This document shows, piece by piece, positions 2,828 to 30,480 of a stretch of DNA of 52,278 nucleotides (position 1 is the first letter of the stretch; every line of letters starts with the position of its first letter). A program made the translations under genes and the position numbers. The notes under the pieces were generated by a model that was not told the origin of the DNA, did no database searches, and saw only the letters and a program-made list of their open reading frames with translations. The DNA lies in assembly GCA_026706025.1 (NCBI GenBank), contig JAPOZO010000065.1, positions 1 to 52,278 of the forward strand, read 5' to 3'. The stretch is from Candidatus Poribacteria bacterium (GTDB lineage: Bacteria > Poribacteria > WGA-4E > WGA-3G).

Positions 2828-4339
2828 ATGGAAATACCAATCATAATGGGAACAGAGACTGAGTACGGCATCTCAGTCAAAAATGCACGTGAGCAAGACC
2901 CGGTCGCTGCCTCTACTTTGGTAGTCAACGCTTATAAGACTTGTAGAGGAGATGTTCCGAGTACGGCTACTTCTGTCACATGGGATTACGATCAGGAAAG
3001 TCCGTTGATGGATGCCCGCGGGTTTCTCGCAGAGACAGAAACACCTATCTCCGAGGCAGACACGAGCAGTGCTGTTAATGACATCCTAATCAACGGTGGT
3101 CGTTATTACGTCGATCACGCGCACCCTGAGTATTGTACACCAGAATGCGCGAACGCACGCGATCTGCTCCTATATGAAAAAGCAGGCGAATTAATATTAG
3201 AAGTCAGTAGGCTCGCAGCGGAACGGCTACTCCTTGACAATCAAGAGATTATCATATATAAAAACAACACCGATTACAAGGGGCATAGTTACGGGGCACA
3301 TGAAAACTATCTCATGTCCCGTAAAGTACCGTTTGATACTATCGTTGATGGGTTAATGCCTTTCCTTGTTACTCGGATTATTATCACGGGGAGCGGCAAA
3401 GTCGGTGCGGAGAATGGGAGCGAGGAGACGGATTATCAAATCTCTCAACGCGCGGATTTCTTTGAAAAAGAGGTCGGGCTTAGCACTATGGTGAACCGCC
3501 CGCTGATTAACACGCGTGATGAACCGCATGCTGATGACAAGCTCTATCGACGTTTACACGTTATCGTCGGTGACTCAAACATGTCTGAATTCAGCATCTA
3601 TCTCAAAGCGGGCATCACTTCTATCGCGCTCCAGTTAATCGAGAAAGGTGTTATCGGAAAAAAATTCAGTTTGAAGGATCCTGTCGCGGCGATAAAGTGT
3701 ATCTCGCGCGATCTCTCTTGTAAGGAAGAGATCGAACTCGCGGATGGAAAGCAGTGGTCACCGATAGAAGTGCAACGCGCGTATCTCAAGTTGGCGCAGG
3801 AACACCTCACACCTGAGGAGCGCACCCCTATCGTTGAAGATGTCCTCAAGAAATGGCAATTCGTGCTGGATAATTTAGAAATAGACCCGGGGCGGTTGAG
3901 TCGCTATCTCGACTGGATTATCAAAAAGAAGTTGCTTGATGCATACCGAAAACGACACGAATATCAGTGGGACGACGCACATGTTCGTATGCTTGATCTC
4001 CAGTATCATGATATTCGTCCCGACAAAGGACTCTATATCAGGCTACTCAAGAACGGACATGTTAAACGCTTACTCAACCATGAAGAAATTGTGCACGCAA
4101 TGCACTATCCACCTGTAGACACACGTGCCTATTTTCGTGGCACCTGTTTACGGAGATTTCCAAAGCATATTTACAGTGCAAGTTGGAATTCAATGATTTT
4201 TATCGGTAAATCGGGGGGACTTGACAAAATTATGATGGATCGTCCCCACTTCGGGACACAAAAGATTGTTGGCGAACTGTTGAACAACTGTACAGCAGAG
4301 GAACTCGTTAAGAAAATTCGAGGCGATGCCTCAGGATAG
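2828..4339 (+). CDS. dop: Pup deamidase/depupylase Dop
   Basis: Converts the C-terminal Gln of Pup to Glu, so that it can be ligated, and also removes Pup from substrates; it belongs to the glutamine-synthetase-like carboxylate-amine ligase fold. The opening IMGTETEYGI is the Dop/PafA nucleotide and metal-binding start. INGGRYYVDHAHPEYCTPE follows, with Asp96 in the place of the catalytic aspartate of characterised Dop and PafA proteins. NTRDEPHAD and RLHVIVGDSNMSEFS are shared with PafA. Length 503 residues is close to the actinobacterial enzyme. The distinction from PafA rests on the IMGTETEYGI start, the longer N-terminal insertion before the catalytic Asp, and the presence of a better PafA at 6638. 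Located between arc and pup, as in actinobacterial loci. Confidence 0.93.
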   Translation: MEIPIIMGTETEYGISVKNAREQDPVAASTLVVNAYKTCRGDVPSTATSVTWDYDQESPLMDARGFLAETETPISEADTSSAVNDILINGGRYYVDHAHPEYCTPECANARDLLLYEKAGELILEVSRLAAERLLLDNQEIIIYKNNTDYKGHSYGAHENYLMSRKVPFDTIVDGLMPFLVTRIIITGSGKVGAENGSEETDYQISQRADFFEKEVGLSTMVNRPLINTRDEPHADDKLYRRLHVIVGDSNMSEFSIYLKAGITSIALQLIEKGVIGKKFSLKDPVAAIKCISRDLSCKEEIELADGKQWSPIEVQRAYLKLAQEHLTPEERTPIVEDVLKKWQFVLDNLEIDPGRLSRYLDWIIKKKLLDAYRKRHEYQWDDAHVRMLDLQYHDIRPDKGLYIRLLKNGHVKRLLNHEEIVHAMHYPPVDTRAYFRGTCLRRFPKHIYSASWNSMIFIGKSGGLDKIMMDRPHFGTQKIVGELLNNCTAEELVKKIRGDASG

Positions 4340-17705: not shown

Positions 17706-19582
17706 ATGAAAACAAGATTTTTCATTTTAACGCTGTTAATGGTTTCAAACCTCAGTATTCTACCCTGTTTTGCACAATATGCGGCGCACACGCAGTTCAG
17801 TCTACCCGAAGGTGCCAAAGCCCGTCTCGGTAAAGGTGAAATAAATGAGATAACGTATTCACCCGATGGTTCGTTGCTTGCCGTGGCGAGTAGTATCGGT
17901 ATCTGGCTCTATGATGCCGAAACGTACCGAGAGGTCGCACTACTTGCAGGACATACGAGCTCAATCAATAGTGTGTCGTTCAGTCCGGATGGTACTACCA
18001 TTGCGAGTGGGAGTGATGACGGAAAGATACGTTTGTTGGATGTTGTGACCGGTGCGGTTAAAGACACACTCACAAATCCTATAGATCAGTTTGGCCTCGA
18101 CGATGTCTTGAGTGTGTTGTTTAGTCCGGATGGTTCGTTGCTTGCCAGTAGGGGTTGGTCTGAAGTGCATTTATGGGATGTTGCGGCAGGTACCCTCAAA
18201 GCAACACTCTCAACAGATCCATACCTGATAGCGAGTGTGTCGTTCAGTCCCGATAGTGCGACGCTTGCCAGTGGGAGCCTGGACAACACAGTGCATTTAT
18301 GGGACGTTGCCACCGGCACCCTCAAAGCAACACTCAGAGAGGATACATTTCTCATCAGCACTGATTGGGCCCGAAGTGTATCGTTCAGTCCCGATGGCAT
18401 CACTATTGCGAGTGGGAGTGATGATGGAAAGGTACGTCTGTGGGACATTGCCACCGGCACCCTCAAAGACTCACTCACAGGACACACGGGGAGACTTTTG
18501 AGTGTGTCGTTCAGTACTGATGGTACGATACTTGCCGGCGGGAGTGGGAAGGGTACGACGTACCTGTGGAATGTTGCGACCGGCACCCTTAAAGACACAC
18601 TCATAACAGAGGCGGGTGATGTCAGGAGCGTGTCGTTCAGTACTGATGGTAAGACACTGGTCAGTGGTGGGTCTTGGGGAGCAGTGCACTTATGGGATGT
18701 TGGGACCGGCATGCTGAAATCCATGATCACAGTAGAGACGGGGGGAGCGTGATTGGTTCGTTCAGTCCGGATAGCAAGACACTTGCCACCGGTGGGCATT
18801 GGGGAAGAACGATGCGTTTATGGGATGTTGCGTCCGGCACACTGAAATCCACATTCGTGGCAGAGGCGGGTGGTATCATAAGCCTGGCGTTCAGTCCTGA
18901 TGGCACCATCGTTGCCAGTGTGAGTTGGAGTGGGACGGTGTTGTTGTGGGATCTCGCACCCGCCGCACCAGAACCGCCACGCCTCGCAGCTGATGTCAAC
19001 GGTGATAGTCGTGTGAACATCCAAGACCTCGTCGCCGTCGCTGCCGCTTTCGGTGAAACAGGAGAGACCTCCGCCGATGTCAACGGTGATGGTCAGGTCA
19101 ATATTCAAGACCTCGTCGCCGTCGCCGCAGCATTTGGTGAAACGGCTGCCGGCGCGCCCTCTGCATCTCATCTTTCTGCGGAGACCGTGCAACAGTGGCT
19201 TTCCGCTGCTAAGCAACTTGGTCTCACCGATACAACCTCACAACGCGGCATCCGTTTCCTTGAGCAGCTCCTGTTAGTGTTGACACCACAAGAGACAGCA
19301 CTCTTAGCGAACTACCCGAACCCGTTTAACCCAGAGACATGGATACCCTACCAATTGGCAAACCCAGCAGATGTCACGCTTCGCATCTACACTATAGACG
19401 GAAGTTTGGTACGCATGCTATCATTAGGGCATAAAGCAGTAGGCATCTATCAGTCCCGTAATCGTGCCGCCTATTGGGATGGCAAAAACGAGGTAGGCGA
19501 ACCCGTCGCAAGCGGTGTCTATTTCTACACCTTAACCGCGGGCGAGTTCAACGCAACGCGTAAAATGTTGATACGAAAGTAG
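17706..19582 (+). pseudogene. Secreted WD40 - dockerin - FlgD-like protein, interrupted by a frameshift
   Basis: A signal peptide (ending near CFAQ) is followed by WD40 blades (VSFSPDGTTIASGSDDGKIR and similar). The first frame stops at 18750-18752, but the blade continues in another frame as SFSPDSKTLATGGHWG. Then come two dockerin-type calcium loops (DVNGDSRVNIQDL, DVNGDGQVNIQDL) and a FlgD-like end (NYPNPFNPETWIPY to ATRKMLIRK). The break maps to a run of six G at 18740-18745: one extra G, or a -1 slip, restores the frame precisely. It may be an assembly error, a true mutation, or a slippage or phase-variable site, so the protein may be functional. Homologous in its N-terminus to the gene at 20992. 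Confidence 0.75.
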
Positions 19583-19745: not shown

Positions 19746-20957
19746 ATGAATCTCTCTAAGTCAATCCAAATAAGTTTGGTCATCCTGATAGTTCTCCAGA
19801 TCGCCATCTTTAGCGGTTGTGATCAGTATAAAGAACTCACCAATGATCCGCCTGAAATAACCAACCTCACTGTCCCCGTGGAGGTTGAATACGGCGAAAC
19901 CGTTCAACTCCGAATCAGGGCTTTTGATGCGGATGACGACGATCTAACCTATATATGGGATGTCTCCGAAGGCACATTGGTTAGTGACACGGGATCCGAA
20001 GTTCAGTGGACTGCCCCAGAGTCAGACGAAGAGATGGTGCCCTCGAAAGTCGTAACCGTTAACGTTTATGTCCGAGACGGTAGCGAGAAAGATGCCTCTA
20101 AAACGGCAACGATCCTCGTCTACTCCAAACCTTACAGAATCGCCGAGGTGCTCAGCGGCACCTATAGGCTCGTTTCCAAAAGTGTTCACGGCGACCCCGT
20201 TCAAGTAGCGGGCACCCTGCGCCTCACGCCCACAACGTTCACACAGGAGTTCCAAGAGGTTTTAGAAGGCGAAGCACAATCTCTGAAACAGTTCGTCACC
20301 GGTTCCTACAAACTCGTCAGACCGTTCAACCAAAGCAGTGGGACGATCCACTGGTTCACGCATGGAAACCCTAGGCCTTCCGTAATTACATATACTTGGG
20401 ATGGACGATTCTTGGCTTTAGTTTTTCGCGCAGATGCCACGCAGTATATCTATAATCGTGGAGGCGCGGTCCCCGAAGTTGTCGAAACCGATGATGTGGA
20501 GCCAGAACCGATTGCTCCCGAACCCATTGAAGAAGATGTCGAACCAGAACCGATTGCTCCCGAACCGGAGCCGATTGCTCCCGAACCCGTTGAAGAACTG
20601 GAGGAGCTTAACCCAGATCCGATTAATACCGATGGCAAACCCGTTACAATAACCGATGCAACCTTCAATGCCAACGTGTTGAACGCTGAATTACCTGTTG
20701 TGCTTGAATTTGAAGCCGATTGGTGTCCGTTCTGCAGACAGATGAAGCCGGTCGTTGAGTCAGTCGCATTAGAACACCGGAACACTTTCATCATTGGGAA
20801 GTTGGATATCGACGAAAACCGTCAGACGACGGGGAAATATAAAGTCAATGGGATTCCGACGTATCTTGTATTCCGAGATGGCGCAGTAGCCGCGAGATTC
20901 GCAGGGGCAATGCCAAAAGCTATATTTGAGCAGAAAATCTTTGATGCCCTAAAATAG
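19746..20957 (+). CDS. Lipoprotein with Ig/PKD-like domain and C-terminal thioredoxin domain
   Basis: The 403-residue exported lipoprotein has a lipobox AIFSGC near residues 21-26. The N-terminal part (DPPEITNLTVPVEVEYGETV to RDGSEKDASKTATI) resembles a PKD/cadherin-type beta-sandwich. A middle module (SGTYRLVSK to YTWDGRFL) is shared with the lipoprotein at 25257. A Pro/Glu linker of EPEPIAPEP repeats leads to a thioredoxin domain with the active-site motif WCPFC followed by RQMKP, and cis-Pro segment GIPTYLVF. It probably acts as an envelope thiol oxidoreductase anchored away from the membrane by the linker. The thioredoxin part is closely related to the UGA-containing protein at 29989. Confidence 0.85.
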   Translation: MNLSKSIQISLVILIVLQIAIFSGCDQYKELTNDPPEITNLTVPVEVEYGETVQLRIRAFDADDDDLTYIWDVSEGTLVSDTGSEVQWTAPESDEEMVPSKVVTVNVYVRDGSEKDASKTATILVYSKPYRIAEVLSGTYRLVSKSVHGDPVQVAGTLRLTPTTFTQEFQEVLEGEAQSLKQFVTGSYKLVRPFNQSSGTIHWFTHGNPRPSVITYTWDGRFLALVFRADATQYIYNRGGAVPEVVETDDVEPEPIAPEPIEEDVEPEPIAPEPEPIAPEPVEELEELNPDPINTDGKPVTITDATFNANVLNAELPVVLEFEADWCPFCRQMKPVVESVALEHRNTFIIGKLDIDENRQTTGKYKVNGIPTYLVFRDGAVAARFAGAMPKAIFEQKIFDALK

Positions 20958-25256: not shown

Positions 25257-25976
25257 ATGAATCTCTTTAAGTCAACTCAAGTGGGTGTGGTACTCCTGTT
25301 GGTGCTTCAGATCGCTATCTTCAGCAGTTGCGATCAGTACGAAGAACTCACCAATGACCCACCTGAAATAACCACTTTCATCGTCCCGAATGAAGTTGAA
25401 TACGGTGAAACCGTCACGTTTAAAGCCAGGGTATTTGATCCCGAAAATAATCCGTTGACGTATACTTGGGATGTAACCGACGGCACTTTGGAAGGCGAAG
25501 CCGGACCCCAAGTCGAGTGGACTGCCCCGGAACTGCCACCGGAGGGGATTGTTCCACCGAAAATCGTGACCGTCTATCTCTACGTGCGCGATGGCGGTGA
25601 AGAAGATGTCCACAAAGAGGCAACCGTTACCGTCTTCTCCAAGCCCTATAAAATTGCCCAACTCTTCAGCGGCACCTATACGCTGATTTCCAAGCAAATC
25701 AAGGGCGACCCGGTTGCAGAGACGAGTACGCTGCGGCTCACACCGACGACATATACACGGGAAATCCAGTCGGATCCCGGAGCGGAGACCCAAAAACCGA
25801 CGCAGTTCATCACTGGCTCTCATAAATTCGTTGAGCCGTTTAATGAAAGCAGCGGAACGATCCACTGGTTCCCCACGGGAAGCACGACACCCGATGTCAG
25901 CACGTATACATGGGACGGCAGGCTGTTTGTCATTTTCTGGCCCGAAACCGATACCAGCCATATTTATGAAAAGTAG
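25257..25976 (+). CDS. Lipoprotein paralogue without thioredoxin domain
   Basis: The 239-residue lipoprotein has lipobox AIFSSC, then the same Ig/PKD-like domain (DPPEITTFIVPNEVEYGETV) and the same SGTYTLISK to YTWDGRLF module as the protein at 19746. It ends (HIYEK) exactly where the paralogue continues into its linker and thioredoxin domain. Either this copy lost the redox module or the other gained it by fusion; the stand-alone thioredoxin lipoprotein at 29989 is a possible donor. ATG 25257 follows AAAGGAGC. Molecular role unknown; envelope location is inferred from the lipobox. Confidence 0.8.
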   Translation: MNLFKSTQVGVVLLLVLQIAIFSSCDQYEELTNDPPEITTFIVPNEVEYGETVTFKARVFDPENNPLTYTWDVTDGTLEGEAGPQVEWTAPELPPEGIVPPKIVTVYLYVRDGGEEDVHKEATVTVFSKPYKIAQLFSGTYTLISKQIKGDPVAETSTLRLTPTTYTREIQSDPGAETQKPTQFITGSHKFVEPFNESSGTIHWFPTGSTTPDVSTYTWDGRLFVIFWPETDTSHIYEK

Positions 25977-29860: not shown

Positions 29861-29988
29861 ATTTTGCATAGAAGTAGGCACGCGCCGGTGCCGTAACCTA
29901 TCTGCCACGCTTGCATCCTACTTCAAACTATGATATAATAGCAATTACAGTGGAACAGAATGTTCTGCTAATATTAAGGAGCCACTTC

Positions 29989-30480
29989 ATGAAAACATTG
30001 TTTAGAACGTGCACTTTACTGATCATTGGTTTAGTTGCAATCTACACTGCTGGCTGCGGTGAAGACGTTGAACAGGAGATGGACCCCGTAGCGTTTGACA
30101 CAGAGCCCGCCCGCGAAGAGCCTTCTAAACCGGTTAATGAACCCATTGCGGCCGATGGGAAACCTATCACAGTCACCGATGCAACTTTTGAAGACGTTGT
30201 GTTGAATGCAGACATGCCGGTCATGCTTGAACTCGGCGCGGAATGGTGAGGCTTCTGCCGGTCGATGAAACCGACCGTTGATGCAGTTGCATCAGAACAT
30301 CGTGAAAAGTTTATCATCACAAGATTGGATGTCGATAAAAATCGTAAAACAGCGAGAGAATACGGCGGACAGGGGATTCCGGCTTACATTATCTTCCGTG
30401 ATGGCGAAGTCATAGGAAAATTTGTAGGCGCGATGCCCAAAGCCGCTTTTGTCCAGCGAATCCTTGATATCTTGAAATAG
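29989..30480 (+). CDS. Thioredoxin-like lipoprotein with in-frame UGA at the first CxxC cysteine (candidate selenoprotein)
   Basis: ATG 29989 follows AAGGAG by 7 nt. The N-terminus has a lipobox (IYTAGC), then a short acidic linker and a thioredoxin domain. Codon 87 is TGA (30247-30249). Reading through it gives EW-X-GFCRSMKP, and the paralogue at 19746 has DWCPFCRQMKP, so the UGA sits exactly at the first active-site cysteine. The frame then runs intact to the cis-Pro segment GIPAYIIF and a TAG at 30478-30480, with length and conservation like the paralogue. Selenocysteine (UxxC) is the attractive reading; a single nonsense change from TGC or TGT is the simple alternative. TGA is a real stop elsewhere (12448, 34688, 41106), so global recoding is unlikely. 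Confidence 0.7.
30259..30293 (+). promoter_or_regulatory. Tandem hairpins just after the UGA (possible bacterial SECIS)
   Basis: CGGTCG (30259-30264) pairs perfectly with CGACCG (30272-30277) around loop AUGAAAC, starting 9 nt after the UGA. CUGC before it can also pair with GCAG after a five-base bulge. A second hairpin, GATGC (30280-30284) with GCATC (30289-30293), loop AGTT, follows at once. Position fits a bacterial SECIS, but the loop lacks a clear G in its first two bases unless the four-pair alternative CGGT/ACCG is used, so support is only moderate. Confidence 0.35.

Follow-up and report, generated by a model that had tools for sequence, protein, structure and literature searches.

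Known Sec-thioredoxins and the poribacterial gene

Thioredoxin selenoproteins with a UxxC active site in the PF00085 (Trx) family have already been described (PMC13188914; PMC9312934), and SelA and SelB are reported to co-occur in most sponge-symbiont bins while being absent from most close references (PMC5649159, ISME J). The gene analyzed here lies at positions 29989-30480 on the forward strand of the window, which is the whole 52,278-nt stretch of Candidatus Poribacteria DNA under study. With the described Sec-thioredoxins it has in common the PF00085 fold, a UxxC site with selenocysteine (Sec) as its first residue, and a SECIS just after the UGA codon. It differs from them by the addition of a signal sequence, a lipobox-like motif and an acidic linker, and by a SECIS loop located 35 nt from the UGA. 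In place of the classical CGPC motif the site reads WUGFC, WUGAC or WUGVC, all lacking the Pro, and the position of Asp26 in E. coli thioredoxin is occupied by Glu.

Three further comparisons were made within the Poribacteria. TrxA (TIGR01068; C18:11132-11440 in the same genome) shares the fold, the Trp preceding the active site and the cis-Pro, but it is cytosolic and has a WCGPC site, and the window protein falls below the cut-off of the TrxA equivalog model TIGR01068 (79.5 vs. 96.8 bits). A paralog at 19746-20957 (forward strand), identified from sequence, Pfam and the phylogenetic tree, belongs to the same conserved gene cluster and is 57% identical in the thioredoxin domain; it differs in having Cys instead of Sec, an N-terminal PKD-like domain, and no counterpart of the second hairpin described below. 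The poribacterial dockerin Sec-thioredoxins fall in the same thioredoxin clade of the tree, have UxxC sites and are likewise exported, but are fused to Dockerin_1 and Ig-like domains, have FUIYC, TUPFC, DGUPFC or WUPFC sites, and have a SECIS apex closer to the UGA. Our literature search found no paper linking a selenoprotein with Poribacteria, and the only paper retrieved for dockerin together with selenoprotein concerns carbohydrate-active enzyme software. The gene almost certainly encodes a real selenoprotein of a known type, belonging to an unusually rich family that is apparently undescribed.

Reading frame and protein features

The frame 29989-30480 contains a single internal stop, the TGA at 30247-30249 (codon 87), and is terminated by a TAG at 30478-30480, so that the complete selenoprotein gene comprises 163 codons including Sec. 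The frame had been described beforehand as intact on both sides of the TGA, and the 163-residue read-through product indeed contains a full PF00085 thioredoxin domain (80 bits, E-value 1.5e-22, cut-off 23.5). By itself the half following the UGA gave a partial thioredoxin match (50 bits), and no Pfam domain was found in the half preceding it. Standard ORF calling cuts the gene into an ORF of 112 residues (29911-30249) and one of 71 residues (30265-30480); automatic annotation halves the gene and conceals the active site, which probably also happens to more than 80 related genes. Of 31 long window ORFs, 18 end in TAG, the most frequent stop codon, and three in TGA, the least frequent.

A ribosome-binding site (AAGGAG, 29976-29981) is located 7 nt upstream of the ATG, and each aligned copy of the gene (15/15) has a RAGGA motif. 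The first 23 codons (29989-30057) encode a signal sequence ending in a lipobox-like TAG-C motif, recognized from the sequence and its orthologs, at which the precursor may be cleaved and lipidated. Cys23 and the preceding Gly are invariant, positions -3/-2 are TA, IA, TI, AI or II, and the corresponding ortholog motifs are IIGC, TIGC, AIGC or IAGC. The TAGC of the window protein is a non-canonical lipobox, and judging from this short motif the thioredoxin is probably anchored to lipid at Cys23. An acidic low-complexity linker follows (30058-30165, pLDDT below 50 over most of its length).

The thioredoxin domain (residues 60-158, 30166-30462) was delimited by profile match and structure prediction. 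In the alignment the UGA, read as Sec, is residue 87 and occupies the position of the nucleophilic Cys of WCGPC, while Cys90 (30256-30258) corresponds to the resolving Cys, giving WUGFC where relatives carry WCxxC; the paralog at 19746 has WCPFC at the matching position, as stated in the preliminary description. The cis-proline position is the invariant Pro131 of GIPAY (30379-30381). In the AlphaFold model the domain has a pLDDT of about 97, residue 87 is placed immediately N-terminal to helix 88-103, and the top PDB matches of the domain are E. coli thioredoxins. No NCBIfam family cut-off was reached by the window protein, and among the NCBIfam thioredoxin-like selenoproteins (SaoT, HUIPC motif, TsoB) only TsoB surfaced, with 19.7 bits vs. 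a cut-off of 805.

Selenocysteine machinery

The search for selA, selB, tRNA-Sec and selD, which had been proposed as a check, recovered all four in the source genome (6.27 Mb, 96% complete, a draft of 103 contigs). The tRNA-Sec gene (C84:129927-130016, 78 bits, anticodon TCA) adjoins selB (353 bits); the matches to selA and selD scored 604 and 360 bits, respectively, and selD itself has an in-frame UGA. Across the genus tRNA-Sec was detected in 32 of 36 genomes, and it was also found in most relatives outside the genus. Three of the four genomes in which it went undetected have selB, and the missing genes look like gaps of draft assemblies. In genome G030 (locus L105, about 3457-3530) the tRNA-Sec gene that follows selB is truncated, without its 3' half, while the UGA-containing thioredoxin genes are retained, which reflects either an assembly fault or a recent true loss of tRNA-Sec.

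Hairpins downstream of the UGA

Two hairpins following the UGA had been noted beforehand, and both are present, starting 9 and 29 nt after the codon; conservation with covariation was found for the second only. Hairpin 1 (CGGTCG/CGACCG, 30259-30277) is stable in the window. Hairpin 2 (UGAUGC-AGUU-GCAUCA, 30279-30294) has 6-7 base pairs, a free energy of -7.9 kcal/mol and an AGUU loop (30285-30288) that lies 35 nt from the UGA. Across the aligned copies 96.9% of the cells of hairpin 2 are paired, with two compensated replacements, A-U to C-G and U-A to G-C (GAGGC/GCCUC in L030, GCUGC/GCAGC in L084), and the hairpin was recovered unaided by RNAalifold. The synonymous-difference rate at codons U+10 to +16, which encode it, is 0.097 compared with 0.32 over the domain, a threefold drop that places this stretch among the lowest of the gene.

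The bacterial SECIS model of PMC13188914 defines a loop of 3-9 nt with a G in the first two positions, a spacing of 16-37 nt from the UGA and a free energy of at most -7.5 kcal/mol. Hairpin 2 fits these constraints with a spacing near the upper limit. The strict version of the test was passed by 12 of the 15 copies, whereas the pass rate was 2.7% for background codons (n = 1500) and 3.2% for Cys codons (n = 124), and none of 31 Cys-thioredoxins passed; in the three failing copies (L028, L031, L032) the core stem is still present. The hairpin 2 palindrome is absent from the Cys paralogs, and Rfam gave no match at the SECIS. The earlier expectation of a SECIS directly 3' of the UGA thus held as regards a hairpin fitting the model downstream of the codon, but the element is probably the second hairpin rather than the adjacent first.

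That the protein contains Sec but is decoded with hairpin 1, or with both hairpins jointly, as its SECIS is the alternative that survives best, and we consider it improbable. The perfect stem of hairpin 1 in the window and a compensated G-C to A-U pair in one ortholog (L035) speak for it; against this, only 72% of its pairs are kept, its register shifts between orthologs, a G at the first two loop positions is not consistently found among them, and synonymous change is not reduced in its region. Hairpin 1 alone was rejected as the SECIS on its poor conservation, and hairpin 2 is most likely the element that SelB would recognize.

Conservation of the UGA codon and alternative readings of it

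The window copy was aligned with 14 orthologs (n = 15, identity 53-92%), the genomes being mostly draft metagenome assemblies. The UGA is retained at the codon 87 position in 15/15 copies, with no TGC or TGT, and the TAG terminator is likewise found in 15/15. Among the genomes surveyed the gene occurs in 15 of the genus beyond the window's own, and the fifteenth (G084) also has the UGA. Within the domain the part preceding the UGA has a median dN/dS of 0.21 and the part following it 0.22, compared with 0.44 for the signal sequence and linker. RtcB (PF01139; 30599-32056, forward strand, identified by profile match and synteny) is the next conserved downstream gene at every ortholog locus examined, and PKD and beta-helix genes are usually found upstream. 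In genome G027 (L068, G027:C540) the Sec-thioredoxin gene is present as a tandem pair, with the UGA and hairpin 2 in both copies.

These data bear on whether the codon is a nonsense mutation of a Cys codon, leaving a recent pseudogene or only a truncated N-terminal product. The UGA is one base away from TGC and TGT, and UGA does serve as an ordinary stop in the three window ORFs mentioned above, but it is present in every aligned copy at identities down to 53%, constraint is equal on either side of it, and the truncated product would have no recognizable domain. The preliminary description had taken conservation of the downstream half as a weak argument against an old pseudogene. Because of the UGA in all 15 copies and the purifying selection after it, a one-base nonsense change was ruled out, and we regard this explanation as very unlikely.

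Decoding of the UGA as Trp (code 4), Gly or near-cognate Cys is given an equally slight chance. The frame would be just as open under such a code, but the genome has the full Sec machinery, UGA ends other ORFs, the relatives have Cys and not Trp or Gly at this position, and the codon is followed by a hairpin that only the UGA genes share; the first three points rule out Trp. A sequencing or assembly error at the UGA base, conceivable in a draft of 103 contigs, has a negligible probability, as a further 15 genomes carry UGA at this codon, the single-contig assembly of G005 among them.

Proposed decoding and function

Based on UGA conservation, selection and the SECIS tests we consider the gene a genuine UxxC selenoprotein, as first proposed, namely an exported, probably lipid-anchored WUGFC thioredoxin whose UGA is decoded by SelB guided by hairpin 2 (probability about 0.95). 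SelB and Sec-tRNA would decode the UGA at 30247-30249 with the help of the hairpin at 30279-30294 (loop AGUU). From established thioredoxin chemistry Sec87 would be the attacking nucleophile and Cys90 would resolve the resulting intermediate. Presumably located in the cell envelope, the thioredoxin may reduce disulfides or oxidized thiols there, and its electrons could be supplied via the full-length DsbD (625 residues, with a thioredoxin domain of its own) encoded in the genome. As a guess, it might repair oxidized thiols in a symbiont exposed to oxidants.

The Sec-thioredoxin family and its evolution

From the genus loci examined we gathered 83 distinct UGA-containing thioredoxin genes of all types. 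Related Sec-thioredoxins occur nearly throughout the genus, and many are fused to dockerin domains (Dockerin_1, in some cases with Ig-like domains). The source genome has three such genes (C59:37885-38637, C59:38653-40740 and C69:40791-42026; L065, L066), and the usual Trp is often absent from their kind. The strict SECIS model with an uninterrupted stem matched 0 of 34 genes in the W/DGU dockerin clades, for which it is too narrow: these forms have a GGNG-N-C-AGUU-G-U-CNCC stem with one mismatch, in which 98.9% of cells are paired and one pair is seen as CG, UA, AU and UG. Their C-AGUU-G apex, on a covarying stem, is found repeatedly at about 23 nt from the UGA, and the same apex with its loop at 35 nt in one clade and at about 23 nt in the sister clades provides a natural test of the reach of SelB.

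Of 85 genomes of the phylum, those with UGA forms belong to the genus or, in the case of G064, to one sibling genus. In the sibling genus g18 the Sec site is Cys (EFKSEFC vs. EFKSEFU in the genus). Two sibling-genus dockerin-thioredoxins (L126 and L127, in G063 and G062) have Cys exactly at the genus Sec position. In a tree inferred from 106 alignment columns the Sec lipoproteins, the Cys PKD paralogs and the dockerin forms group apart from TrxA; the tree requires three Sec/Cys changes, for which gain and loss are indistinguishable.

The family provides concrete selenoprotein candidates for the SelA and SelB of sponge symbionts, with the Cys-using sibling genus as a natural control. More speculatively, and with considerable doubt, this genus of sponge symbionts may have built an extracytoplasmic selenium redox system, with Sec-thioredoxins on lipid anchors and in dockerin-based extracellular assemblies; if true, such a radiation would help to account for the reported SelA and SelB enrichment among sponge symbionts (PMC5649159).

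Two other loci of the window were noted. The gene at 25257-25976 is a paralog of the gene at 19746 that has the PKD-like part without the thioredoxin domain, and it is conserved in the cluster across genomes. In the region 17706-19582 a WD40 ORF that ends in a TGA at 18752 overlaps, in another frame, an ORF at 18674-19582, in which the WD40 repeats carry on and are joined by dockerin-like and FlgD-like segments; this is a probable frameshift and not a Sec site.
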